Below are positions 3,239-51,619 of a DNA stretch of 64,000 bases, in pieces. The stretch is from assembly GCA_000827325.1 (NCBI GenBank), contig KN832870.1, positions 3,410,001 to 3,474,000 on the forward strand. The letters run 5' to 3'. The position numbers and the translations under genes were made by a program. The stretch's first letter is position 1; the number at the start of each line of letters is the position of its first letter. The notes beneath the pieces are model-generated. The model did no database searches, had not been told where the DNA came from, and saw only the letters and a list, made by a program, of their open reading frames with translations. The stretch is from Oidiodendron maius Zn (taxonomy: Eukaryota > Ascomycota > Leotiomycetes > Myxotrichaceae).

Positions 3239-6200
3239 CTACTTCGAGGTACTGTACTGCACCACATTGATCAGGGATTTTAGCCGCTTTACTACGGCCC
3301 CCATGTCCCATGGCATCAGCCCAGTGGAGCGGCAGCGGCCTTCAGCCATGGTAATTTTTGCCTTGGTATTAGCACCGCGATCAAGCAGCAACTTCACCAC
3401 AGCTTCATGTCTATTGGTAACGGCATAGCGGGGCGGCGTCCAGCCACGGCGAATTGCCTCAATATTGGCACCACGATCAAGTAGCAACTTTACCATGGCC
3501 ACATGTCCGTTCTTAGCAGCATGGCAGAGCGGCGTCCGGCTATCATAATTTTTTGCCTCGATATTGGCACCACGATCAAGTAGCAACTTTACCACGGCCG
3601 CATGTCCGTTATCAGCAGCACAGCAGAGTGCCGTATAGCTGGAGTAATCTTCTGCCTCAATATCGGCACCACGATCAAGTAGCAGCTTTACCACGGCCTC
3701 ATGTCCGTTATCAGCAGCAAGGCAGAGCGGCGTCCGGCCACCATAATATTTTGCCTCGATATTGGCACCACGATCAAGTAGCAACTTTACCACGGCCTCA
3801 TGTCCGTTATCAGCAGCACGGCAGAGCGGCGTCCGGCTATCATAATTTTTTGCCTCGATATTGGCACCACGATCAAATAGCAGCTTCACCACGGCCGCAT
3901 GTCCGTTCTCAATAGCCCAGTGGAGTGCCGTCCCATTATCACCCTTTGTATCCCAGTTAGCACCACGATCAAGTAGCAGCTTCACCACGGCCGCATGTCC
4001 ATTCTTAGCAGCACAGCAGAGTGCCGTATAGCTGGAGTAATTTTCTGCCTCGATATCGGCACCACGATCAAGCAGCAGCGTTACCACAGCCTCATGTCCT
4101 TTATTAGCAGCACAGCAGAGCGGCTTATAGCCAGTGTGATTTTTTGCCTCGGTATTGGCACCACGATCAAGTAGCAACTTTACCACGGCCTCATGTCCGT
4201 TATCAGCAGCAGAGCAGAGCGGCGTCCGGCCATCCCAAATTTTTGCCTCGATATTGGCACCACGATCAAGTAGCAACTTTACCACGGCCTCATGTCCGTT
4301 ATCAGCAGCACGGCAGAGCGGCGTCCGGCTATTATAATTTTTTGCCTCGATATTGGCACCACGATCAAGTAGCAACTTTACCACGGCCTCATGTCCGTTA
4401 TCAGTAGCAGAGCAGAGCGGCGTCTGGCTATCCCAATTTTTTGCCTCGATATTGGCACCACGATCAAGTAGCAGCTTCACCACGGCGTCATGTCCTTTGT
4501 TAGCAGCACAGCAGAGCGCCGTATAGCTGGAGTAATTTTCTGCCTCGATATCGGCACCACGATCAAGCAGCAGCGTTACCACAGCCTCATGTCCTTTGTT
4601 AGCAGCACAACAGAGCGGCTTATAGCCAGTGTGATTTTTTGCCTCGGTATTGGCACCACGATCAAGTAGCAACTTCACCACGGCTTCGTGTCCGTTATCA
4701 GCAGCACAGCAGAGTGGCGTCCCGTCATTACACTTTGCTTCCCAGTCGGCACCCTGGTCAAGCAGTAGCTTCACCACTGCCGCATGTCCGTTCCTACCAG
4801 CGTAGATAAGTGGCACACGGCCCAATTTATCCTTTGCATTGAAGTTGGCTCCTATTGCGAGCAAGAGCTTCACCAAAGCTTTATGCCCTTTCTCGGCAGC
4901 ATAGGAAATCTGCGTCCTACCAGTGTCTCCATCTTTCGAGTAGACGTTGGCGTCTGTCGCAAGCAATAGCTTGACGACTGCATCACGGCCTTTGGCCTCA
5001 TCTCCTTGGCATTGAAGGGATAGTTCCATCACTCTCTTCCCTCTAGAGAGATACTGTGATGCATCATTGAGTTCCTCCTCTGACACCCTAATCTCATCTC
5101 CTTGTTGCTGAAAAAGTAATTCCATTACCTCTCTATCAGCATTATGCGCTGTAGCAGCCATGATCATCTCTCCTGTGATTTCAAAATCTATTCGCTGAAG
5201 AATAATCGACATATTCTCCTTCTGAGATAATTTTATCTGCCTTTTGAGAGCAATTTTGTTTAAGACCCTAAGCTTAGGTAAAAGATCGTATATTGTCCCT
5301 AATTGATATGGCATAAGGACATTAGGCTCGTCAAAGTATAGGAACCGAATAACGTCGAGAGTAAGATCCTGAGTAGTCTTCTCATAATCTGGAAGTAGCA
5401 TATGAGATTTATTGGCGTATGATAACATTCCAAGTAATGCATATATCTTATCTCTTTCATCTTGTGCTTCGCTTCTTCCAAAGTTCCTGAGTAGGGTATA
5501 CAGATCCCGGCTTTGGCTCCACCAGGAGTCTTTTCTCGCTGGACCAGGCAATATGTCGAGGACGGCTTGGCAATGGGGATCCGGTATGAGACCTATTAGT
5601 AGCGGGGCAAGAGAGAGGAAGCGTGCCTGAACGTATTTCGTACCGCAATAGACTACAGCAGCTTGCGCATTGGCCGCTTCTTGCAAAATCCAAACCCTCC
5701 TAAACCAGGATCGGTCTAAAAGAGATCGTAGTCCCAACCGCTGATAGAAGGCCAGTTTGAAGTGTTTCAGCTGTAAGATTGGTTGAACCATCATCCAAAG
5801 GTCTGACCAGCGCTGGTCAGTACGTTTCCAATCCTTCCATGCATGCTTATTGCTCTCTACTTGCAGCTGATGTAGGGAATCTATAACAACATCTGTCTCA
5901 TATGTTGTTGGGCCTAGCCATACAATGACTTGCTCGGCATTCTTATAAATCTCTCCCATTTGTTGAACTTGATGCCCTCGTTCTTTCGTATGCCCTTGGT
6001 CGATGCAAATAGCGTCAACCCACAATACCCGATCTTGATCTCGCAAACGGAGATCTTGGAGCGCCCGGTACAGGTTTTGGGTGATGTGTAGCCATCTTCC
6101 GTTCACTTTTATTATGTCGCAAGTTTCCGTGGCGCCCCATGTATAGGATAAAGCTTCGTAGGAAACTACACTGTCCCGTTGATCGAGAAATGCCTGGAAA

Positions 6201-7466: not shown

Positions 7467-9492
7467 TCAACCAGGCATAGGATGATTGACTTTCAGGTTC
7501 AGCCCGAGGACCACCGTCTTGAACATTAGGCGGTCAATAGTGTGCTTCCATCCATCGGGGAGCATGAACAAGATTTTGGACACGCCGCTACGGAATGATT
7601 CCGGGTGGTCGAGGAGTTGACGAACATAGATGCGCGTACTGTCATTGGCAACTAGCCAAAGCTGGCGTTCTGCATATGCGCCGTAGACGAAGAGTAGAAG
7701 GGAGTAGACGATCAGATGGCAGGCAAAGCCGATGATCGTGGGCCTAGCCTGGGGCATCGTCTTCGGGTTGGTGATCGTGCTCCAGTCCCATACCCTGGGT
7801 CGGATATGCTCGAGATCGGCCTCTGGGGGTGGTTGCCCATCAGTCGACTGGGCGGTTGAAGTTTGAGGATCACCAGCAACAGGTCGGCTTTCTGTCGATG
7901 AGGCCGGTGGGCGCTGGGTAGCATTGCTCGGGCCAGCCTGTTCAGTGATTGGGCTGGATGTAGTCGCACTGGCGCTCACCTCAACAGCTGGGTCGCCCAA
8001 GACTCTTGATGCGAATCTCGCGACAATAGGGGTGAGAGCCGACACGAAGGCAAAGAGGAGAATGAGAAAGTTGAGCTCGACTTGGAACCAGCACAAGATA
8101 GGGTGGTGTGCCGCGACCTGGAATGGCCGGTCCACGATCTTAGTGCGATCAATGTAGACATTTTTGGTGACGGTTTGGGTGACGACTCGCTCTATCTCCT
8201 TTGGCATTACTGGAGGGATTCCGAGATGGCCAGGTCGGCGCGGCGCGCTGTCTCCTTCGTTCTCGGACTCGCTGGATGACCCCACCTCCGCAAGTTCATC
8301 TCCGAGAGACCTTCTCGATGATGCATGGGTTTTCTTGCGATTCTCGTCCGGGTCTGGGCGGAAGCCAAGCCTGTCGAAGTCCTCCTTGAGCCTTTGATAT
8401 TCTTTGCTGAGAGTTTTGTACCGATCTCTCTCATACTTGATATCGTCGGCAGCGTCATCGTAGATCTTTGCTTGGACGCGAAGAGCACTCAGTTCTTTGG
8501 CAGACATGTGACCAGACTGCTCGAGGTCGCTGCACCTGGCGAGCAGTCCTTTCGAGTCTTTGATGGCGGATTCGAGTTGTGCCTCAAGACCATCAGCTCG
8601 CTGGATGGCCTTCTTCTCGGCGACTCGGGCCTGATCGAGGAGCTGCTGATGGCGATCGAGCGCGCCCTGCTTCTCCTTGATGCTCTTGCTGTCTTCGCCG
8701 ACTTGCTTCTCGAGGGCCATGATAATCTTGTCCTTCTCAACCACGTCCTCATTGGCTTTGTCGAGCTTCTCCTTCTGGACCTTGGTGGCTTCGATCCAGA
8801 TGTCGAAATGGCGCTCCGAGGTATTGTACTTCTGCTCGAGATCTGTGTTGTATGCATCAGCATTGTCTATTTTCTCTTGAATCCTTGCCAGTTCCTTTTT
8901 GAGTGACGCATTCTCGAGCTCGAGCTCGAGCTCGCGCTCACCGCTGGCCATGGGTGTGATGGAGTGTTGGCAGACGTGAAGTTGGCGGGGGATCGGTTAT
9001 CGATAAAAATATAAAAAGTGATGAACGAGGGAGGCTGGGAATGACGATCTCGTACTCACCTTTGACCCGCGCCCGCAACAAAGACACCTCCTCTTCCTCC
9101 TCCTCCTCCTCCTCCTCACCCTCCTCCTCCCGCATCCGTCCTCCCTCCAACAATGAAAGCTCGGGAGCCTGAGACCGGCTCGGGCCCCCGAGACTTTCCC
9201 CCTCGTCCCCCGTGGTGCCGGCCGTCATCGGGGCTGCCTCATGGCCCTTCCCCTGGGCTCGGCGCATCCCTCGCGGGATGGCAATCTTTCGCCGACGGAT
9301 GTGGGCCTCGGCGCAGGCAGCGGCCAGGGCAGACGGCTGCGAGAAGGTGAATTGGAACTCCTCACTTCCAATCCCCTCCGCGCAGCCGCTGTCGAGGCCG
9401 CTGCCGTTGCCGTTGCCGCCATCGTCGGCGGATTGGCTTTGAGAGTCGCGCCCGCGCGACTGGTGCTCGAGAGTTGGTGCGTCCGTCATCAT
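7467..9492 (-). CDS. Coiled-coil protein with two C-terminal membrane segments, function unknown
   Basis: Best model is two exons, 9492-9056 and 8943-7467 (637 aa), using donor GTACGA and acceptor CCAG; this is the only nearby pair that keeps frame. Exon 1 encodes a Gly/Ser-rich segment with SEEFQFTFSQPSA, a basic patch HIRRRKIAIPR and a Glu run (about E14). Exon 2 opens with a repeated Glu-Leu tract and then about 220 residues of heptad-rich coiled coil, an acidic Ser linker, then two hydrophobic stretches (around LNFLILLFAFVSAL and HLIVYSLLLFVYGAYA) separated by a low-complexity Thr/Ser/Pro region. An alternative is a 494-aa protein starting at 8951, with exon 1 separate. No characterised family is recognised. 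A tether or organelle-scaffold role would fit the architecture but is only inference. Confidence 0.6.
9093..9132. repeat. TCC trinucleotide microsatellite encoding poly-Glu
   Basis: Run of TCC/CTC triplets read on the minus strand as a Glu tract in exon 1 of the coiled-coil gene. Such runs vary in length between isolates. Confidence 0.7.
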
Positions 9493-40654: not shown

Positions 40655-41123
40655 TCACTCCTCAATCACGGCTTGCGTGGCGAGATCGATTTTTGTCTTC
40701 TTAAATTTTCGGGCCTTCACCTCGTTCTTTGGAAGAATGTCAATGTCAGCAAATATCCTATTCTTAGTCTCAGGCACACGAAAGTACGCACCGATGAGGC
40801 TCAACGCCATAAAGCCAACGTAAAAGAAACCGAGCTTGGCGCCCCAATTCCAAGAAGTGTTCTGCAGCATATGCGGAACCAGTTGGCCGTATACCATAAT
40901 GCAGACATTAAAAAGCTGATGTTGAAAATGCCACCATCAGTAGAGCGGTCGTCAGACTCTCCGGAGTCGTGGTTTCATCTGAGGGTGAAGAGCTTTTGCC
41001 CTTCGATATCAGAGTATACGACTCCTCGACTTTGAAGATTCTAAGTTGCCTGCGTAAACATACGAGGTTTTTCGGCCAACAGGAGACCTCTACACCTACC
41101 CAATGATCGACCAAATTTAGCAA
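40655..41123 (-). pseudogene. Remnant of an MFS sugar-transporter gene (C-terminal end)
   Basis: Minus-strand fragments match the last part of a sugar permease: QNTSWNWGAKLGFFYVGF, then AYFRVPETKNRIFADIDIL and a charged tail RKFKKTKID. Upstream (40908-41100) the match continues only in shifted frames (a VYAGNL-like stretch, then LISKGKSSS). The rest of the 12-helix transporter is absent. So this is a truncated, frameshifted copy rather than a gene. The family label rests on PETKNRIFADID, which corresponds to the PETKGRTFAEID-type motif. Confidence 0.7.
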
Positions 41124-41333
41124 ATGGGTGTTCTACGACTTGAAGCAAGTGGGCACTGTATACAAGAAGGAGTCACGATAAACAGCATGGATGAAGCTCG
41201 AGCCAAAGATGTCAAATTTTAAAGTCTGTATGACTACAGACCTATCAAATCCCGAACAGTAGACCTATCAACTTCCCACCAGAAAACTTCCCTCTCTCTT
41301 TCTCTAAAAGGGAAAGTGGGAGAAAAAAAAGAT

Positions 41334-41440
41334 GGCTTTCGACAGGAGAAAAAGATGGCTTTCGCCGGGAGAAGAGGAAGATGGCTTAGTGAGAGGCCCG
41401 CGCTACCCTTGCCCGAGCCTCATCAAGGGAGGCTTTCGCT
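41334..41440 (-). repeat. GGC-GNRA-GCC mini-hairpins in helicase 3' end
   Basis: Read on the minus strand (helicase sense), three copies: AGCGAAAGCC at 41440-41431 inside the last codons, GGCGAAAGCC at 41366-41357 and GTCGAAAGCC at 41343-41334 downstream of the stop. The last two are followed by ATC and a T/C-rich tract. A related TAAGCCATCTTCC stretch overlaps the stop codon. Confidence 0.7.
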
Positions 41441-43878
41441 TTAGGTTGTCTTAAGCCTTTATTACCGCCCTTCTGTGCCCATTTATCGTCTTGAAAGTAC
41501 TCCAGATCCTAATAGAGTTAGTAGATATAATACGATTAGTTGAATCGGACGCACGTACTATGAGCCAGGTAGGATCAACAGCTGTTACCGTCTGGATGTA
41601 CTGCTTGCCCGAATATATAAAGGTATCAAAGATAACCCACTGGTGTTGACAATCGATTAGGCCGCTTTCAGGGTGAATTCCTGCTTGGTAATTGCTGTGG
41701 ACGGTCATGTAAAGATCTCCATCACCAGTGTGGAAGGCAGACCGATAAAAGAAGCTCCGTGCTAAAGCCTTACGGATATTAAGGGCGTAGGCTTCATCGC
41801 TAAATGGTGTTGATCTTAAACTTCCGAGTAGGAACCGACAAGCAGGACCATAAAGCTGGTTACGGATATTGAGAACCTCGTCAAGCACACGGCGGTTAAG
41901 GAAAGCATCAAAGCACCACTGGTCCATGTTGATTTTCCCACTAAACTTTGCTTGGGCATAGGCGTGTAGTGCGCTGAGCTGGCTAAGGTGGTCCGAAGTT
42001 CCATCGAACCACCATCGCCGTACCGCATCTGCAACATATCGAAGCGGATACGGGCGAACAAAAATTGACTGCTGGGTGCTAGCAAGAGCGGCAAGGCTTA
42101 GCATCTCCTCGCTACAGTTGAGTTTATGAGCCTCGAGAATGGCTCTATACCAGACTGGGTCGACTGGTAGTTTTGCTGCCTTCACACCGCTATCCGTTAT
42201 CGACCCATCTGCATTAAGGTAGCCCCTATAACTTAAGATTAATTTGAATCTAAAACTTCGAGATGGGGTAATACTACTTACAAAGCAGTTAGCTCCTGTA
42301 GAGCATAAAGGTAGGGCTCTGGATGAGGCGGATCGATGAAATCGAACTTCCCAAGACCCTTATATCCAGCGGCCATTAAGAGCAAGATCTCTGGGCTTAT
42401 AGTAGCGGTGAGTATGCCGGGGGCGTTACTCTGGGGGAAGACATTGTTGAATGTGTCTTCCGAATACAGGCGGAAGCACATACCCGGCTGGGTGCGACCA
42501 GCTCGGCCAGCCCGCTGCCGGGCAGAAGCCTGGGAGATGGGCGCGGTTAAAAGAGTGTTTAAGCCTGCCCGCGGGTTGAACCCGGATTCCTTACATAACC
42601 CGGTGTCTGTCATTAAGTGTCAGTTACCTAGATTCTAAGGTAGCCTTTTAAATATCTTACCTATAACGTAGACGACGCCGTCGATCGTCAGGCTCGTCTC
42701 GGCAATGTTTGTCGAGACAATACACTTCCGGTTAGAAGTGCGTGCAAAGACACTCTTTTTACAGGCCGGCGAGAGTGCGGAATAAAGAGGTAATACTTCT
42801 AATCCTTGGGTATGTCTCCGGAGAATCGAGCAGACTTGCTCGATTTCCTCCACTGCCAAGAGGAAGAGAAGAATGTCACCAGACGGCAGCTTCTGGTGGA
42901 TATGCTGGACCGTGCTAATGGCCAAAGGTAGATAAAGAGGAGTTTCCCCCGAACCGCCGAGATAAAAGATTTGGACCGGAAAGGTCCGACCGACGATATT
43001 TAGCATTGATGTGGTGCTCTCGCCACCGAAGTATTGCCAAAACTTGTCGGCGTCTAAAGTTGCCGACATGATGATCACTTTCAAGTCATTTCGGAGCGAC
43101 ACAGCTTTTTTGAGCATGACCAGGAGGACGTCGGTGGCAATTGTACGCTCGTGTGCTTCGTCGATGATCACACAACTCTGTTATTGTAAGGAGCAGGTCT
43201 GGCGGCATTTGGTCGTACTTACATATTTCGAGAATATACCATCTTCCATGGCCTCTCGCATGAGCAGCCCATCCGTCGTATACTTCAGGCGGGTCTTCTC
43301 ACTGGTAGCCTTATCAAAACGAACATGGAATCCGACCTCCTGGCCGAGCTCCACATCCATTTCTTCAGCAACTAGACCTGCCACCTCAGTTGCAGCAATT
43401 CTGCGTGGTTGTGTGTAGACTACTATTTTGCTACTCGCCCATTCGTCAAATAGGACGTATTGAGGGATCTGGGTGGTCTTTCCAGATCCCGTCTCGCTTG
43501 ATAGTACCATGACCTGCAGGTATTGAGTTATTCTCTGTCAATATGTCTAGATAGAAAGAGAAAATGATGATATTTGCTTACCTGCTTGTCATGGTAAAAG
43601 TCCAGGAAGTCCTGGCGCCGCGTAGCAACGGGTAGGGCGCGTCGTTGCCTTAAGATATCGAAATATTTTGTAGTGTGGTTGCCACCGCGCAGAGGATGGA
43701 TGCTTCCATCCTCGATAGCTATGGCCTGGGCAGCCGTTGTATTGTTGCGCTGGAGTGATTCCATCTTGGCCCTGTGTTGATGATGGTGATGGTGGTGGGT
43801 GATGGTGGTAGTAGTAGACTGTTGTGGTGGAAGGGGAGTTATTTTGTTGTGGTGGGTCTCAAGATCGAGAATGCTCAT
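41386..43878 (-). CDS. Prp43-like DEAH-box RNA helicase
   Basis: Six exons: 43878-43582, 43513-43223, 43177-42661, 42606-42282, 42225-41559, 41508-41386 (739 aa), all GT-AG and in frame. Helicase motifs in order: ETGSGKTTQIPQ (Walker A), TQPRRIAA (Ia), IIDEAHERT (DEAH), IMSATLD (III), TNIAETSLTI (V), QRAGRAGR (VI). The winged-helix, ratchet and OB-like C-terminal regions follow, ending QTVTAVDPTWLIDLEYF. Size and order match Prp43, which disassembles spliceosomes and remodels pre-ribosomes. The C-terminal half is clearly diverged from the usual housekeeping form, and the N terminus carries a natural run of six His. I infer an extra, island-specific paralogue. The last exon contains one GCGAAAGC motif of the local hairpin family, read as Lys-Ala-Lys-Ala. 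Confidence 0.85.
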
Positions 43879-44534
43879 ATGTTTTTATGGGATTGCCAAA
43901 GATTGCAGTAGCTTGAACAGTGAATTGTCAAAGGTTGCCAGGCAGAGTACAATAGGTCACATCTACATCTACGCGTTCCCACGCCAACAAAGCCAGCGCC
44001 GCCTGCTCCCGAACCTCGACCGGTTGAAAGAGGATCTCGCCGACCTCACAGTCATAATTACAGTACCTGTCTATACGTTCGTTGTTCTCTCTCGAAATAT
44101 AAGGTCACTTCAATTGGGTGTATTCGGTGGTGTTATGGTTTAATGCCTGGTTTGTACGGCACAAATAGGAAAAGGGGTAAGCATCGTGTAAGCGAACGAA
44201 TGGGGATAATACCCTACACATTCAGACTCTGTACATATATTATTCTCCTGGTTCTCGGCTACCAAGGGCTTTGACACTGACCAGGCACAACTCGCACAGC
44301 ATTCACGTATCTAATCCTTAATACCTCTATATAGTGGTAATCAAGCTTCTGTCACTCTTTCATACCCTTTGACTCGTGTCTTTGACTCTGTACAACCCCC
44401 ATATTGCTATCTTCCACTTTCGCGCTAACCACATTCGGCCGAAAACATATATCTCTAGCATCATCATTCCTCGTAAATGTAAAAGTATTCCTTCCTCCAC
44501 AACTCCCACTCCCACTCCCACCCACCCCAACATC
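43879..44534. promoter_or_regulatory. Divergent promoter of helicase and HNH genes
   Basis: 656 bp between the helicase start (minus) and the chosen HNH start (plus). The HNH frame is open upstream to 44376, so part of it could be coding. Just before the HNH start is a CCACTCCCACT-type pyrimidine-rich leader. Confidence 0.45.
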
Positions 44535-45641
44535 ATGTCGTCGCCGTCGTCGCCCCTGACCCCGCCCGACGTGGCTCTCGCGGACGTGGAGAGTGAGAGC
44601 CAGTTTGGCGATTGGGTAGATGATAGAACCGCACTCAACACCGTCCTCGAGGGATATCCACCTGGAGATGACACCGCGTCCTTCCTCCGAACGTTTTTTC
44701 ACTATCTGCCCGAGCGCGAGGGCCAGCACAATCTCGCTATAGATGTGCATGATACGGCTCAGGTTGGAAACTTGCGACAGCTCCGAAACCACCTCGAGCA
44801 GGCCTTGCTGCAGGCTATGAGGGCCAAGGGAGGGAAAACCCCGGCTACCATCACTCCGTCGCCACGCCCTGCCGCCGAAGCTGCCACCGAGGAACTCGCG
44901 TCGCACCACGTCCAGGCGGCAACACGGGATAATCAATCGGGACTTAAGGAACGTTGTCAGAAGAGGGACGGTCATAGGTGTGTTGTCACGGGCGGCTGGC
45001 ATCCCGAACACGCCCCTACGGGAGCACTGTCAGGGTCCTTGGAAGCGGCCCATATTATACCGCTCGCGCTCGGTTCGTTCAAAAACGATGTAGAGTTACA
45101 GGGGCTTAACATCATTTGGGAAGCTATTTACCGCTACTTCCCTAGTATTCGTTCCCGCCTCCATCTTGAACTAGAGGATGTTAATAGGGAAGAGAATGTC
45201 ATAACGATGTACGCCCCGTTGCATCACGAGTTCGGGATTTTCAAATTTATTTTAGAGCAGACAGAGACCCGTGACCGGTATCGCATCAAGACATTCAAGA
45301 ATTTCTCTCTCTTCTTAGCCCCTTTCCTACCCGGCGATGGGTTTGTTACGTTACGTTCCCACGACGGCCGGTATCTCCTTCCGGACCCTAGTCTCCTCGC
45401 GCTGCATGCGGCAATCGGGAATATCTTACATGCAACCGGCAGCGCAGAGAGAATTGACAAGATCCTCCGGGATCTCGAAGGCGCTAGTGGTGGGCTAGCA
45501 CCGGACGGAACTACCGACATTAGTGCCCTATTGTCAATGAACCAGCTTTCGTTGGAATCATCACGAGATAGCCTGCAAAAGCCAAAGCCCGCCGCCCCTC
45601 CCCTACCGGGAGGGGAGAATCAGAAGCCGATGTGGAGTTAA
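44535..45641 (+). CDS. HNH-nuclease-domain protein (HNH_2 type)
   Basis: Single exon, 368 aa from the ATG at 44535 (MSSPSSPLTPPDVALADVES); the frame is open to an ATG at 44376 but that extension is low complexity. The domain lies at about residues 135-270: LKERCQKRDGHRCVVTGG, then LEAAHIIPLALG, NIIWEAIYRYFP and the block NVITMYAPLHHEFGIFKF. His of AAHIIP, the Asn and the later His are the expected metal and catalytic positions of HNH nucleases. This architecture is frequent in fungal genomes in variable regions; targets are not known. The C terminus is Pro/Lys-rich. Only 20 bp after the stop, a decayed helicase copy begins on the same strand. Confidence 0.82.
   Translation: MSSPSSPLTPPDVALADVESESQFGDWVDDRTALNTVLEGYPPGDDTASFLRTFFHYLPEREGQHNLAIDVHDTAQVGNLRQLRNHLEQALLQAMRAKGGKTPATITPSPRPAAEAATEELASHHVQAATRDNQSGLKERCQKRDGHRCVVTGGWHPEHAPTGALSGSLEAAHIIPLALGSFKNDVELQGLNIIWEAIYRYFPSIRSRLHLELEDVNREENVITMYAPLHHEFGIFKFILEQTETRDRYRIKTFKNFSLFLAPFLPGDGFVTLRSHDGRYLLPDPSLLALHAAIGNILHATGSAERIDKILRDLEGASGGLAPDGTTDISALLSMNQLSLESSRDSLQKPKPAAPPLPGGENQKPMWS
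45596..45617 (+). other. Perfect GC-rich stem-loop near HNH stop codon
   Basis: CCCCTCCC and GGGAGGGG are separated by a five-base loop, within the last codons of the HNH gene. It is an 8-bp perfect inverted repeat. A function in mRNA 3'-end behaviour is possible but not shown. Confidence 0.4.
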
Positions 45642-45660
45642 TGGTGCCACGCCAGGAATA

Positions 45661-46155
45661 ACATGGAGTCGAATGACCTCAAAGCTGCCAGTGCATCTAG
45701 CCTGGTATCATGCCATTCTAAAGGAGCACGAACTCAACTGCAGCGACGTGATGTTCAGCCTTGCCGTGCTCACCAACACGCAGCAGTCTATCTTTGTTCG
45801 CCCATATGGCCCTCGGCATACTGCTGACGCGACAAGGCCCCGATATCCCCAAAGGTAGCGCCCGCGCCGCTAGTAGCACGCTGATGCCCGTGTTTCGCAC
45901 GATGAAAGCGCTTGTTTCGCTAATGCCCATGTTCGCACGGTACAGGCGCTTATTTTGATTCTTTGTTTTAAAGGCCAGTTGTGTAAGCCTATACGCAACA
46001 CCTCTGGATAGAAGCAACCTACACTACCACGAGGATGGGGAAGGAGATAGAGACGAAGTAGGAGTGACTGTAGCGCGAAAAGAAGGCTACATTGGGGATC
46101 TTGAAGCCAAAGCCCTCGCTCGACGAGGCTTGGGCTAGGACAGTGGGCCTCTTCC
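45661..46155 (+). pseudogene. Decayed C-terminal copy of the DEAH helicase
   Basis: The plus strand encodes LPVHLAWYHAILKEHELNCS, then MFSLAVLTNTQQSIFVRPYG, matching helicase LPVDPVWYRAILEAHKLNCS and ALASTQQSIFVRPYP at 42150-42040 (minus). After a gap of about 250 bp (which carries a ~38-bp tandem duplication at about 45880-45955) the match resumes with KPKPSLDEAWAR, corresponding to the helicase ending KAKASLDEARAR. The helicase motor domains are absent. The copy is inverted relative to the intact helicase, with the HNH gene between them. Downstream sequence (46187-46350) also matches the helicase 3' UTR, so a whole gene end was duplicated. Confidence 0.75.
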
Positions 46156-46186
46156 TGGAGTATTTTCATGTCGGTCGAAGTTGTCT

Positions 46187-46325
46187 GGCGGAAGCCATCT
46201 TTTTTTCTCGGGCGCGAGCCATGTTTTTTTTCTCGGCGCAAGCCATCTTTTTCTTTCTCGGCGCAAGCCATCTTTTTCTTTCTCGGCGCAAGCCATCTTT
46301 TTTTTTCGGCGCAAGCCATCTTTTT
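46187..46325 (+). repeat. Array of six GGC-GNRA-GCC hairpin units behind helicase pseudogene
   Basis: Six ~24-bp units of the form GGCGNRAGCCATC plus a T-rich tract: 46187 (loop GGAA), 46211 (GCGA), 46235, 46260, 46285 and 46308 (all GCAA). Every loop obeys GNRA and every stem is GGC/GCC. The array is followed by CTTTCCCTCTTTTTAGAGAG, close to the sequence after the intact helicase 3' UTR repeats. Confidence 0.75.
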
Positions 46326-46813
46326 TCTTTCCCTCTTTTTAGAGAGAGGAGAGAGAAGAGAGCAAGAGAGCATTTCTTCTAGTTTACAATAGACTATACT
46401 TGCTTTGTCCATGTTGAATGATTCACTCCCACCGCACCTTTACACCTTTAAGTGCTAAGCAACACTTTTATTTTAGTAAGACTCTCCAAAGAAGGAGAAA
46501 TCACGTAAGGCGGTTGATCTGTACATGATCACCATCGTTTTTAATGCAGCGATAAATTTAGTGATTATAGCAACTCTCGATACAATCTCTAATTCTTAAT
46601 TCGGTAATGGATACAACGCTCAGTTTGTCAAACATAGGAGTGGCTATAAATTGTTCCTCGTTAATTAACCTAATCGTTCCTCTCCACTCACAAAGTCTAC
46701 TTTAGAACCTATTTAGCAATCGTAGTACAGAGACTCCTAGAGCCTCTTCAAGACCCAAATTGAGCACTTGGTTACTCGATTTGAGAGATTCCCTTTAGTT
46801 ATCCAGATACTTT

Positions 46814-49275
46814 ATGTTAGAATCGGTTAGTTCAGAATACCATAGAGCTAGCTCGAATATCGACTTGCCATCCACCTTCTGGACTCTTCATAAAGGATTT
46901 GAGTTTATGACTAGAGAATGCTCTTTTGAGTCGATAGTGATAATATTGACAATATTTGAAGTGGAGTTGACGACGATTCTTAAAACTAGAGGGAGGAGCT
47001 ACCCTATATATAAGGGTCGCATAAGCAACTCGTCTGTGCCGCACAGTGTTGTATACACTGCCGCACTAATCCTAGGCAGGGCTCAAAAGATCGTACGATC
47101 ATCACACTGTGTATTCGACGAGTCAGAGCCTCTAGAAGACCTAGAAACCCCTGAAAACACAGATGATTTAACCCGGCCGCCGGGGAAAATCAGATATATC
47201 CCTAAAGCTACTAGCCAAGGGGAAGACGGTAGCCTTGATCAGGAATACATCCCCCTCACGACTATAGTAGTCGATATAGAGGTAGATCAGGAGGATAGTG
47301 ATAGCGATCCTAATCCACTACCTGCACCTATAGAGAGGGTCGACTAAAAGGATTAAAGAACAAGCTAAAAGCTTCTGAACTACCAACTATTCGACTACGT
47401 TTAGAGACACCTAGTCAGACAGGACTATCTGACTATATAGATCAAGGGGAGCCTAGTTAGGGGAGCATGGAGGCACCTTAGGGTGGCTAAGACTAGAATC
47501 TCCTAGATCTGTTAAACTAATAGATTACTCGATTATATACCTAGAGTAACCTAGCCCTATTTGCAACTGCCTTACTAGCTATATAGGTTAGTGGATATAT
47601 AGCAGCTGTTTTAGACTATAAGGAACCGAAAACACTCTATTACCTGACTGGCTAGAATAGCTAGAAGCTATATATACAGAACTAAGGTCCCTAATTAAAC
47701 ATAAGACTTAGAAAGCTATATTAGTTAGCAAGGGCTGCCTAAAAGCCTAGAGCAAGAAGGCTCTAGGTGCTAAGTAGGTATTTAAGATTAAGTGTAGTGC
47801 TAATGGCTAGATTATCTAGTACAAGGTACACTAGATAGTTAAAGGATATAAACAATAATACAGCCTAGATTATAACTAGACCTTTGCTAGCGTTATATAT
47901 ACAGCCATCTAGAGAATTATCCTAGAGCTAGTAGCAGTAAACGACTAGGAAGTAGACTAGATAAACGTTAAATCAGCCTTCCTATCATATGCAAATCGGG
48001 GTGACGCCAACAACCCGCCAACAGCTGCTAACGGCGCTACGGACGCAAGTCGATTATTTTGGCGCCAGTCAAAACACTATACGACCAACTGGCAACCAAC
48101 TGGCAGGGCTGGCTTAAAGGCTTAAAGGATTCAGAGGCTTTGTAGGTTCGAAGGGCTGGCTCAAAGGGTTCAGAGGGTTCGGAGGCTTCATAGGTTCGGA
48201 GGCTTCGTAGGTTCGAAGGGCTGGCTCAAAGGGTTCAGAGGCTTCATAGGTTTGAAGGGCTGGCTCAAAGGCCTTAAAGGGCTAGCTAGCTTAAAGGCTT
48301 CAATTCGGAGTGTATGGTTTGCCAACCAGTCGCCAACACCCACCAACGCTGCCAACACCCGCCAGTGAGTAGCCAGCTAATAGCTATTGGAGCCATTGGC
48401 AAACCATGAAATCACTGGCGCTCTCCCGGTTTGCGGATGATATAGTGAAATTAATAAAGAGGTCTATATTAATCTATCTAATAGCTAGGAGTTGTTCCCT
48501 AATATATTTAAGTTAGAGGAGATAGCCCTATTACTCTAAAAGGCCTTATATAGCCTAAAACAGTCGCCTTAACTCTAGTAACTTACCCTAAAAGCAGTAC
48601 TTAAAAGGCTAGGCTACCTAGCTATATAGACAAGGTATAATATTGCATTTACAGCCTCTATATTATCACGATTCCAAGTTAATCTAGCACTAGCTTATAT
48701 TAAGTCAGCTAAGAGGGTCCTATAATACCTTAAGGGGACTATAATATATAGGATTATACTTAGAGGACTTAAATACAGCCTGTATAACCTAGAAATTCAA
48801 CTGTATACAGACTCAGACTATACTAGGGATTATAATATATACAGGTCAACTAGTAGATATATAAGTTTTGTTATAGGAGGGCCAGTATCCTGGCAATCGA
48901 AGTAACAGTCGGTAGTTGCTTAGTCTAGTACAGAGGCTAAGTATATAGCTATATCTGAATCAGCTAAGGAGGTAACCTGGATACATTACCTACTAGAGGG
49001 ATTGAGATATACAGGACAAGACCTTAAGCGTATTACCCTGTCAGGTGATAATCAGGGCGCACTCTCACTAGCTGAGAACCCTACCTTTCATTACGGAAGC
49101 AATCATATAGCTGTCCGCTACCACTTAATACGCCAGGAGGTCAAAGAGGGTAGGCTACAGCTAGCCTATATACCTATAGACTGTATGCCAGCTGACGGAC
49201 TAACAAAGGCTTTGAAGTCACCAGTGTATGCAAGGTTTATACGGCTCCTGACGTTAGTAAAAGAGGTCAAATAAG
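46814..49275 (+). pseudogene. RIP-like Ty1/copia retrotransposon polyprotein remnant
   Basis: AT-rich, stop-filled copy of a copia polyprotein. The junction after integrase is seen near 47080 (KIVRSSHCVFDES). Reverse transcriptase pieces at 47650-47985 (VKGYKQ, SLDYN, TFASVIYTAI, INVKSAFLY) resume at 48441 (EINKEVYI) after an insertion. RNase H runs to 49274 (SSTEAKYIAISESAKEVTW; then VRYHLIRQEVKEGRLQLAYI). Many stops are TAG or TAA where Gln or Trp is expected, as C-to-T/G-to-A mutation (RIP) would give. Gag and protease are not recognisable. The element cannot be active. Confidence 0.82.
47986..48439. mobile_element. 454-bp TIR element (MITE-like) inserted in the copia remnant
   Basis: The insertion splits the reverse transcriptase frame; removing 47986-48439 restores a continuous reading F-L-Y-S-E-I-N-K-E-V. 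The ends are imperfect terminal inverted repeats: CATATGCAAATCGGG on the left against CATCCGCAAACCGGG as the reverse complement of the right end (12 of 15 match). A 2-bp overlap (AT) could be a target duplication. Inside are about four copies of GGGCTGGCTCAAAGG (48108-48300) and a perfect 12-bp inverted repeat ATGGTTTGCCAA / TTGGCAAACCAT (48314-48325, 48396-48407). It codes for nothing and is much less AT-biased than its host. Confidence 0.65.
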
Positions 49276-49330
49276 GAGGGTATTCGAGGTGTTTTTTACT
49301 TAGAAGTGCATATGCATTCAGCCAGGGGAG

Positions 49331-49561
49331 TGTTGACCGGTATTAGGGCTTCAAGCACACACGTCGCGATGTCTTAGGGTTAGTGGCAACATACGCAATT
49401 GCACACGACGATGTAGTCGTAAGGGCCTACACATGTTGCCACCTGAATTGTTATATAATGAGTGTTGTGTACTCTAGTCTTAACCCTTAGTTGTCTCTGT
49501 ATCACTCAATAGTCAATATAACTCTTGAGTTTCACCTTGATATCCGACTACAACCTGTGCA
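49331..49561 (+). mobile_element. Copia 3' LTR
   Basis: Starts TGTTGACCGG directly after a purine tract CCAGGGGAG (49322-49330, polypurine tract) and ends CCTGTGCA. The 3' end is set by comparison with a second fragment at about 54330-54377 that shares GAGTTTCACCTTGAT and ACCTGTGCA and diverges right after CA. Length is about 231 bp. The 5' LTR was not found. Confidence 0.6.
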
Positions 49562-50145
49562 TTACCTGCCCTCTAATCAAGAGATAATAATTCTCAAGGC
49601 TTATGAATTGAAATGCCTTTACCGTAGGTTTGTTTCATTTGCACAATGCAATGCGCTTCTCACTCAAATAACTACCCACGCACGGGCTTTAACCTCATTT
49701 CTGTCACCGAGAACAGCCGTCACGTAAGTCGGTATGATTCGTTCTTGTGGACAGACGAGTGGCTGTTAATGTATTCCACTAGCCTAATGGGGGGAAGCAA
49801 CCACACACACACCGGACTGGCCGCCAGAGAAAAGAAGAGAAAAGAAAAGAGAAGGCTTTCGCCTGATACACCCCGACAACATGAGGAAGAAATGAAAAAA
49901 GAAGGCTTTCGCCTGTATGAGGGAGGAAAAAAGAAAAGAAAAGAGAAGGCTTTCGCCTGATACACCTCGACAACATGAGGAAGAAAAGCAAAAAAAGAAG
50001 GCTTTCGCCTGATACACCCTGACAACATGCCTCGTTGCTTATACTCCGCCCCAGCTAGTCCGACCTCTCCCTATCCCTCCCTCCGCTGCGCCCTCCTCGA
50101 TGGCCGCCCCCTTGATCGGCCTCGCCCTGTTGATCGGCGTCCTTT
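49562..50145. other. Region downstream of the RRM gene with hairpin repeats
   Basis: 584 bp between the LTR end and the RRM stop codon. No gene. Its right half holds the four-copy hairpin array described separately and is probably RRM 3' UTR. Confidence 0.5.
49854..50009 (-). repeat. Four GGC-GAAA-GCC hairpin units behind RRM gene
   Basis: On the minus strand (RRM gene sense) GGCGAAAGCC occurs at 50009-50000, 49957-49948, 49913-49904 and 49863-49854. Each is flanked by A and T, extending the stem to AGGC/GCCT, and is followed by TC plus a T-rich tract. Three of the four are preceded by GTGTATC, itself after ATGTTGTC. Confidence 0.75.
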
Positions 50146-51619
50146 TTATCGTTCCCTTCGAGGCACCATTTCGAAAAGGGTTTTTGGCAATTTTTCATCC
50201 CGCTTGGTCTCTTCCAGAACGGCGTCATTAATAGTACACGTCATCCCAGGGGTTCCAGCCGGAGAGTCGCGGGCGGGAACGTACTGGAAGGTTTTCTCGG
50301 GGAGTTTAGACCGTTCCTTGTTTTCCACCATCTCCGCCCTCACCTGGCGCCCATGGATCTGCCACTGACGGAAAAGGTCAAAATCGCCCCAACCCGCGCC
50401 TATACCTGCTGGACGTGGAAACTTGGGTATATGACTGCGCGAGGTTGCCGACTGGAGATTGCTAGATGACTCGGAGGGGGGGATAAAAGTCGGGGAATAA
50501 GAAAGGAGGGCTTTCGCCAAGGGATCCAGTCCAAGAAGTTGGCCTGGCTTCCAGCTAAGGCCATCTTGGCGACATGACATCTCGATTCCTGCGGCAAAAA
50601 TGCGAGCGGTATCCTTATAAGGCGCATCGGTAGTCCAGACATCTTCTATTTTTAGGATCTTTCGAGGATCCGCGTCGGAGCCTTCCTTCTTCATTGGTCT
50701 ACCCGCATGTAGCCACCGTTGCCAGCCCGCGGCCTCGAACTCGGGCAGGCGGTCCAGCTCGATGTTCTTCAACTCCTGTTTCCCCGGGTTGCCCTTAACC
50801 ACTTGAATCCAATTTTTGTTCCAGTCGGCGGTGTTTTGCGAGGCAGGGCTCGGGTTCCGCTGGGAGATAAGCTCTCCCGTTTCCCTGTCCACGATTGGCC
50901 AAGGGATACCGGCTTTCTCGAAAGCCGACTCGAGCTTCTCCATTCTGCGCATGAGCGATTCTTTGGCTAGGCCATGCATGGAGGGGTCACTCGTATAATA
51001 CCACTCCTTGGGATATTCGGTCAGGTGCAGAGACTCTAGGGACGACAGAACCTTCGGTTCCGACTCATTGGTCGCCTGCACGGCGGGAGCGGGAACGGGA
51101 GCGGGAGCGGGAGAAGCGGCGGGAGAAGAGAAGAAAGGGACGGCTTTCGCCGGAAGGGAAGGCTCTCGACTGAAAGCACTTAGAGACCCATCTGGCGGCG
51201 CTTGTGCGATGGGAGCTATCGTGGGCTGGACTTGAGGTCGTGGGGCTGGCTTTTGAGGTGCAGCCTAGGCAACATTAGCGACAACGTTCTGAGACTACCT
51301 TGATCTTACTTACGGCCGTGCTCGGAATCGTCCCGATCTTGATGGGCCTTCCCTTTAAAGACGCGTTCTCCAACGCGCTCTTTGCGGCCTCCGCCGTCTC
51401 CTTGTCTGCAAATTGTACACGGCACCAGCCCTTATGCTGCCTTGGCTCGTTGGGCGGCATGTCGATCCAGAAAAAGGTGCATCTAGAGAAGCCACGCTCT
51501 CTGACGAGCCTCTCGACGTCGGTCTTCTTAGACACTAGATTAAGATTCGCTAGATGGATGACGCGGCCATCTTGACACGCGCTCTGTTGTAGTTGTTTAA
51601 TGCTCTGATGGGCGGCCAT
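50146..51619 (-). CDS. RRM RNA-binding protein with unrecognised C-terminal region
   Basis: Exons 51619-51314 and 51264-50146 (474 aa), with intron donor GTAAGT and acceptor CCTAG. Residues ~18-98 form one RNA recognition motif: GRVIHLANLNLV (RNP2-like) and GWCRVQFADKETAEAAKSAL (RNP1-like, with Trp-Cys in place of the usual Gly-Phe). A Pro/Ala/Gln-rich linker follows with a Pro-Ala dipeptide run. The C-terminal ~310 residues (for example EWYYTSDPSMHGLAKESL, EKAGIPWPIVDRETGELI and GWGDFDLFRQWQIHGRQVR) look folded and conserved in style but I recognise no domain. Two GGCGAAAGCC motifs lie inside the coding sequence (51151-51142 and 50518-50509), read as Ala-Lys-Ala. It is nuclear or cytoplasmic, with no signal peptide. 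RRM identity is sure; function is unknown. Confidence 0.78.

Follow-up and report, generated by a model that had tools for sequence, protein, structure and literature searches.

A family of short hairpins with GNRA loops follows the stop codons of several unrelated genes for nucleic-acid enzymes in this genome. We observed the element itself, its places and orientation, its loop rule, covariation of its outer stem pair, and mosaic 3' modules in which it takes part. The original prediction described a 10-mer of GGC, a GNRA tetraloop and GCC (pattern GGCGNRAGCC) at 15 sites in the window, the whole 64,000-nt stretch of DNA analyzed here. All 15 coordinates are correct, with loops and strands as claimed; 13 sites are exact, and 41334 and 41431 differ by one change each. 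The window holds 14 exact 10-mers, compared with a mean of 1.20 in shuffles (0 of 100 shuffles reached 14). The fourteenth, at 8357 (+), lies outside the 10-kb island and was taken as a chance match because neither covariance model lists it. A covariance model trained solely on 17 copies from outside the window found 12 window matches at E<0.1, all within 41322-51154 and all in the claimed orientation. Copy 46211 reached only E 1.9 with this model, and 41357 is not listed separately, as the match at 41334 overlaps it. The features are as follows.

41386-43878 (-), multi-intron gene for a DEAH-type helicase (Helicase_C, HA2_C, OB_NTP_bind); predicted gene model, with an ORF start at 43878 as putative gene start
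41386-41388 (-), TAA stop of the helicase in the same predicted model, after a last intron ending TACTAACTCTATTAG
41357-41366 and 41334-41343 (-), cores of two hairpins on the helicase 3' side, the first beginning 19 nt past the stop
41065-41257 (-), 3' tail past the helicase hairpins
41431-41440 (-), AGCGAAAGCC within the final coding exon of the helicase, probably no family member
44376-45641 (+), HNH_2 gene, lying 5' of the helicase pseudogene and of the array that belongs to it
45668-46237 (+), helicase pseudogene, similar to the C6 helicase 3' end in two pieces (45668-45839, 89.5%; 46102-46237, 72%)
46187-46317 (+), six-hairpin array 3' of the pseudogene fragment (outside-trained covariance model; TRF period 25), with starts at 46187, 46211, 46235, 46260, 46285 and 46308 and loops GGAA, GCGA and four times GCAA
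50146-51619 (-), RRM gene, with RRM_1 in exon 1 and an uncharacterised exon 2
49854-50009 (-), four hairpins in the RRM gene 3' region (E 9e-5 to 4e-4, outside-trained model), cores 49854-49863, 49904-49913, 49948-49957 and 50000-50009, all CAGGC-GAAA-GCCUUC and then a pyrimidine tract; TRF array 49838-50029, period 52
50509-50518 (-), hairpin in RRM coding sequence (Leu-Ala-Lys-Ala; E 0.054, outside-trained model), where the C6 paralogue has GGCGCGAGCC (Gln-Ala-Arg-Ala) at the matching codons
51142-51151 (-), hairpin in RRM coding sequence (Pro-Ala-Lys-Ala-Val; E 0.078, outside-trained model), with the C6 counterpart GGCGGGAGCT (Pro-Ala-Gly-Ala-Val)
C6:2094-2103k, C7:1077k, C11:1256k, C3:583k and C1:1841k, further copies in the same genome
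C2:2284023, C14:1001440, C1:1962568, C12:411461 and C21:712768, further genome matches

The 10-mer at 41431 had been counted as a member. It is listed by neither covariance model and reads Lys-Ala-Lys-Ala, versus Glu-Val-Lys-Ala in the C6 paralogue, and it probably does not belong to the family.

Confinement to the 10-kb island holds within the window, but not genome-wide. The bare 10-mer is at chance level in the genome (556 matches versus 520 for a reversed control pattern). Adding an NTC-TTTTT tail gave 24 matches versus 2 in the control, and since 21 of the 24 fall at six places, the family extends beyond the island and is also no microsatellite spread through the whole genome. A stem-relaxed form gave 20 matches versus 0, 17 of them at the same six places. 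One match, C1:1816588 (GGCGAGAGCT), was read by eye and judged to be chance. The hairpin-bearing contigs are 1.8-6.6 Mb long and carry intron-containing nuclear-type genes, and thus are not mitochondrial DNA.

The proposed sense-strand orientation and 3' position were borne out. All 11 hairpin arrays are in sense orientation, a strand bias relative to genes, and the first hairpin lies 16-64 nt past the stop codon in eight of nine genes and 136 nt past it in the ninth, always in sense. The host genes encode DEAH helicases, RRM proteins, two diverged HNH_2 types and a probable PD-(D/E)XK nuclease (REase-like), and within the block, proteins of RNA-binding type are the products of two genes (RRM_1 and DEAH helicase). 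Because four of seven REase-like matches, most HNH_2 genes and all more distant helicase matches carry no hairpin, the element is not needed by these gene families in general. The AlphaFold2 model of the REase-like family (182-304 aa) has a mean pLDDT of 80.8. No PDB structure matches it at E<=0.001; the best are 6okh (E 2.4e-3) and 3ot2, a putative nuclease of the DUF820 type (E 1.4e-2). The family has no Pfam match, and no relatives were confirmed in bacterial genome contigs or viral contigs.

Among 25 perfect stem-and-tail matches in the genome with the loop left free, 17 have GNRA loops, all at the six places, and the eight others are scattered. In loop-unscored units from 11 3' regions, GNRA occurs in 21 of 22 units scoring at least 13 of 14 and in 5 of 7 scoring 12, compared with 1 of 13 antisense units and 2% of shuffles (mononucleotide, 12 sequences). 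The GNRA rule therefore held, and loop changes outside GNRA are not as common as those within it. Six GNRA loops were found (GAAA, GCAA, GCGA, GGAA, GGGA and GTAA). Alignment A2, which includes four coding copies and the degenerate copies E1, E3, J2 and J3, has GNRA in 30 of 33 copies, the exceptions being E1 (TCGA), E3 (GCGG) and J2 (ACAA). It omits 51161 (GTCGAGAGCC), 41431, L036:5408 and L039:4889 (GGTGG[GA]AGCC) and L036:5443 (GTCGTGATCC). The loci were first found by GNRA-containing patterns, so loci with only non-GNRA loops could be missed, but the loop-blind search argues against many of these. The coding copies in the RRM genes keep Ala-x-Ala, where x is K, R, Q or G (seven readable sequences at site 2, five at site 1), all obtainable from an NRA codon.

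The stem was compared across copies. In 31 distinct copies the fourth pair is UA in 11, AU in 10, CG in 2 and unpaired in 8; outside the window 16 of 17 copies pair, and sliding the partner position lowers pairing from 92.6% to 15-50%. The third pair is GC, AU or GU. At one orthologous position ATGGC-GCGA-GCCAT (C7) corresponds to ATAGC-GTAA-GCTAT (C1), so that GGC/GCC has become AGC/GCT. A possible fifth pair forms in only 9 of 31 copies. The predicted covariation is thus present, with about three independent pair changes: the A-U/U-A switch tracks gene type, C-G comes from one coding site and its paralogue, and one G-C became A-U. Two of five covariation counts show no excess over shuffles (both-side-change pairs 64/500; pair types 500/500). 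Of 10 stretches folded, 9 have a GNRA hairpin in the minimum-energy structure, but whole arrays are no more stable than shuffles, which speaks against the RNA reading. With few independent events in one genome, the results support a selected RNA hairpin.

We propose, with moderate confidence and from sequence evidence, that the hairpin serves as a binding element in the 3'-UTRs of a small set of genes that recombine, and that it spread by duplication and recombination. The element is (A/U)GGC-GNRA-GCC(U/A)UC followed by a U/C tract of 10-20 nt, in one to six copies just past the stop and twice inside the RRM coding sequence. Each copy in an mRNA would fold as a mini-hairpin with a GNRA cap, next to a pyrimidine tract that stays unpaired. 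The hairpins may be docking sites for one RNA-binding factor, the prime candidate being the block's own RRM protein or helicase. Docked transcripts would share one fate, whether in 3'-end formation, stability or localisation, and gene-plus-hairpin units would have been duplicated, recombining with each other at the hairpin arrays. Transcription of the element, its binding by a protein, the binder and the downstream effect are what we infer here.

The 3' regions bear on a different reading, which is possible and which we hold as tentative: GC-rich mini-palindromes with a purine/pyrimidine strand could be DNA break or template-switch sites, with the RNA shape incidental. Equally tentatively, such sites would exchange gene 3' ends, hence arrays would mark the junctions of duplicated gene units. 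Similarity between the 3' regions of unrelated genes does begin at the first hairpin: the C6 RRM and C11 HNH_2 regions match at 84.8% over 99 columns, and the window helicase and C6 REase-like tails, just past the hairpins, at 77.6% over 196. Three REase-like units (85-86%), each ~1.1 kb long and with its intron retained, terminate within the hairpin array. In the C1 copy, the sequence past the hairpins includes a piece that resembles the 3' end region of an HNH_2 gene, with 66 of 70 positions identical. Within a locus, unrelated genes also tend to carry matching loops (GAAA at 4 of 5 sites in the window, 0 of 10 elsewhere; Fisher 0.004). However, a palindrome gives no reason for GNRA on one strand or for 11 of 11 sense arrays, the RRM coding copies are not at visible junctions, and no target-site duplication was seen by eye around the three REase-like units. 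The original prediction had no view of the rest of the genome, where further unrelated genes are trailed by this element and shared 3' modules begin at it.

We consider it unlikely that the arrays are an ordinary 3'-UTR minisatellite of single origin, copied as genes duplicated and through ectopic gene conversion, and decaying at present, with GNRA reflecting shared ancestry. Like 3'-UTR minisatellites, they have tandem units of 23-52 bases (TRF periods 23, 25 and 52); adjacent copies are nearly identical, and the degenerate copies with TCGA, GCGG and ACAA loops would fit decay. Folding energy is unremarkable as well, being no better than in dinucleotide shuffles over 10 stretches (z +2.1 to -1.4). 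Unlike in such minisatellites, a structured core of 10-14 nt is kept while spacers vary, and it is common to unrelated genes that have no other common 3' sequence upstream of the hairpin. Moreover, most changes fall on the N and R of the loop and on a covarying pair, and some orthologous copies differ by two bases within the set of six GNRA loops (GAAA/GCGA and GCGA/GTAA).

The binding element might also be a code private to each locus, with a block-specific loop, its own RRM or helicase reader, and hairpins doubling as gene-swap joints; this is improbable. It is doubtful to the same degree that the loops divide into GAAA for the window RRM and helicase genes, GCGA for the C6 RRM, helicase, HNH and REase-like genes and GCAA for C11. 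If so, nuclease, helicase and RNA-binding genes that form a mobile or driving set would mark their own transcripts, and the joints would be a eukaryotic, nuclear parallel to the attC sites of bacterial gene cassettes. Captured or convergent bacterial-type intrinsic terminators (hairpin plus U run) are very improbable: the 20-base pattern has matches in 35 viral-contig stretches, as would be expected of phage terminators, whereas the fungal copies stand in tandem, with stems of only 3-5 bp, at nuclear intron-bearing genes on multi-megabase contigs.

Cis-acting RNA hairpins in 3'-UTRs are known in general. One hairpin common to unrelated nucleic-acid-enzyme genes, co-duplicated with them, present also in coding sequence and sited exactly at the points of module recombination, would be a new means of linking selfish or defensive genes into one set in a fungus. 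The proposed binding element offers a 30-nt site for testing, the RRM protein encoded in the same block as a testable partner, and loop variants that form a natural series. The literature searched yielded no described match to it, Rfam gave no match above the gathering cut-off in the window and five loci (L036, L037, L038, L039 and L041), a tRNA search found none, and a protein search with the translated array as query found no arrays in other fungi. Protein matches show that soil metagenomes contain close relatives.

A comparable case is that of the recombining REase-like and HNH gene families of fungi, Crinkler-type ones included (see PMC5289972). We know of no common 3' hairpin in them. The fungal ies6 motif (PMC5640933) is a GNRA-tetraloop hairpin, single, extended, found in many species and lying antisense to the gene it accompanies. 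Judged by its loop rule and covariation, our element shares the GNRA cap and short paired stem of ies6; unlike ies6, it forms tandem sense mini-hairpins in a single genome, past the stops of unrelated genes. In fungal mitochondrial DNA, mobile GC clusters and double-hairpin elements (PMC4478555, PMC7218506) are similarly short, GC-rich hairpins dispersed over several places, but here the copies lie on nuclear chromosomes, at gene 3' ends, on one strand and at about six places.

The window RRM gene itself differs from its C6 paralogue. A suspected nonsense codon sits at a probable intron 3' end (TAG|GCT), so that only a frameshift of the C-terminus relative to the C6 paralogue remains.

All 15 listed hairpin sites (a GGC-GNRA-GCC mini-hairpin followed by a pyrimidine tract) are correctly positioned, 13 of them exact and two with one change, and the window holds 14 exact core 10-mers (GGCGNRAGCC) compared with 1.20 in shuffles. 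The genome is fungal and nuclear, with 45.9 Mb in 58 contigs (the window being C1:3410001-3474000). Genome-wide, the bare 10-mer is not enriched (556 matches versus 520 for the reversed pattern). For the tailed motif GGCGNRAGCCNTCTTTTT, with one mismatch allowed, we found 24 matches versus 2 in the control, and 21 of the 24 fall at six places. A looser form gave 51 versus 24 matches and a stem-relaxed form 20 versus 0, 17 of the 20 lying at the same six places. The original prediction had confined the element to one 10-kb island; copies also occur at five further places, listed here with the genes that carry them.

Places of the tailed motif and carriers of the element
This window: helicase; helicase pseudogene piece; RRM gene
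C6:2094-2103k: RRM gene; helicase; 461-aa HNH-like gene; REase-like gene (probable PD-(D/E)XK nuclease family)
C7:1077k: REase-like gene
C11:1256k: HNH_2 gene
C3:583k: orphan, with upstream sequence similar to the end of the HNH_2 gene
C1:1841k: REase-like gene

The proposed covariance-model scan, run with the 17 copies outside the window, found the island independently (12 matches at E<0.1); the next best window match (E 0.21) lies elsewhere than the island, and the best match on 15 control loci had E 0.2.

The predicted GNRA rule for the loops holds when the loop is left unscored. The loop-blind pattern GGCNNNNGCCNTCYTTTY has 25 matches in the genome without mismatch. GNRA loops occur in 17 of them, every one at the six places, a location that is partly by construction because these places were first located with GNRA patterns; the other eight are scattered and none has a GNRA loop. 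The GNRA excess itself (17/25 versus ~3% of random loops) is free of that construction. With one mismatch, the signal is drowned by background (293 versus 207). Across 11 3' regions, loops are GNRA in 21 of the 22 units scoring at least 13 of 14, in 5 of 7 scoring 12 and in 4 of 27 scoring 10-11; the antisense strand gave 1 of 13 and shuffles 2%.

Alignment A2 has 33 copies, 31 of them distinct. Among these 31, the fourth stem pair is U-A in 11, A-U in 10, C-G in two and unpaired in eight; it is formed in 16 of the 17 copies outside the window (9 U-A, 7 A-U). Sliding the partner along lowers pairing from 92.6% to 14.7-50.0%, and none of 500 shuffles reached the real pairing or covariation score. 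Two further pairing counts were within the shuffle range (64/500 and 500/500 shuffles), and only 9 of the 31 distinct copies have a fifth pair. Because the pair type tracks gene type (A-U in RRM and HNH genes, U-A in helicase and REase-like genes), it points to one switch or a few. At an orthologous place in the REase-like gene, C7 has ATGGC-GCGA-GCCAT and C1 has ATAGC-GTAA-GCTAT. At least one such hairpin appears in the predicted folds of 9 of 10 stretches, but the stability of the stretches does not exceed that of shuffles (z +2.1 to -1.4). The fourth-pair covariation, resting on few independent events, and the GNRA rule favor selection for RNA folding. RNA-level constraint on the hairpin is the better reading, and recombination at the arrays is real alongside it.

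As predicted, orientation follows the sense strand: at all loci, every array lies 3' of a gene on that strand. The first hairpin follows the stop codon by 16, 19, 20, 22, 22, 35, 36 or 64 nt (the 20 nt refer to a degenerate first copy at the C6 helicase, where the first intact copy is at 51 nt), and by 136 nt in the RRM gene of the window. This gene has a frameshifted C-terminus: in the region 50060-50150 its stop at 50146 is early, and an RG-rich tail resembling the one in the C6 paralogue follows in another frame. Carrier domains are Helicase_C, HA2_C and OB_NTP_bind; RRM_1; and HNH_2, for which the 461-aa gene is barely above the cut-off (21.5 versus 21 bits). No Pfam family matches the REase-like proteins, which are common across Sordariomycetes and Leotiomycetes (364 proteins) and whose predicted structure has a weak likeness to a DUF820 putative nuclease. 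The C6 block is a paralogue of the window block, with RRM gene and helicase in the same order and 70-73% DNA identity. Some paralogues of the carrier families lack the element, so it is tied to a particular set of copies rather than to families.

Similarity between the 3' regions of unrelated genes begins at the hairpin, not upstream of it. The C6 RRM and C11 HNH_2 genes share 99 columns beginning one base 5' of the hairpin; between the window helicase and the C6 REase-like gene, 196 columns past it are shared, a tail found only at these two places genome-wide (E 0.01). Three REase-like units of ~1.1 kb, 85-86% identical including an intron, end inside the array, and directly past the array of the C1 REase-like copy lies a piece that matches the region downstream of the HNH_2 domain at C3:1865k in 66 of 70 positions. 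Together these place the arrays where recombined gene units join. Beside the C6 REase-like gene, L037:3598-3681 is an RRM-gene coding fragment (90% over 84 bp to L036:4976-5059, also on C6), a sign of gene-piece shuffling in the C6 block. Between the C6 helicase and HNH-like gene, L036:9270-9475 is a near-perfect 206-bp palindrome (93.7%), part of which is found again at L037:1512-1554.

Loops also tend to agree by locus. In A2, window RRM and helicase copies have GAAA in 8 of 8, and the pseudogene array between these genes has GGAA, GCGA and four GCAA. On C6, GCGA occurs in 6 of 9 across four unrelated genes, the remainder being GGGA and two degenerate loops. With sites collapsed by hand, GAAA occupies 4 of 5 window sites versus 0 of 10 outside (Fisher 0.004), and GCGA 5 of 6 C6 sites versus 2 of 9 others (Fisher 0.04). 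Local gene conversion could account for this agreement, as could a locus-specific partner.

The claim of copies within coding sequence (Ala-Lys-Ala) stands for two minus-strand copies in the window RRM gene, which are among the 12 covariance-model matches (E 0.054 and 0.078), but not for 41431, which is probably chance. Their C6 counterparts are weaker, with E 0.12 and 0.59. At 50509, GCG-AAA-GCC (Ala-Lys-Ala) corresponds to GCG-CGA-GCC (Ala-Arg-Ala) on C6, and in readable relatives the middle residue is R, R, Q, K and R. At 51142, in an otherwise freely variable linker, the residue between two alanines is K in the window, G on C6 and R, R, R in three relatives. K, R, Q and G could all be obtained from NRA codons, which, with the relatives read as protein, is suggestive only.

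Another REase-like paralogue has a different 3' array on C2 (L078:2053-2429; C2:2356985-2357314; 78 bp x 4.8). Its unit contains the hairpins CGTGC-TACGT-GCACG and CATGC-TACGT-GCATG, which differ by a compensated pair. This pattern occurs nine times in the array with at most one mismatch; elsewhere there are only two-mismatch matches (12 versus 15 in the control). Between the pseudogene array and the RRM gene, window 46500-49300 is a stop-ridden remnant that we take to be a Copia-like retrotransposon. At window 3454-4722, a 99-bp unit is repeated in 12.8 tandem copies (83% matches), possibly of ankyrin-repeat type.
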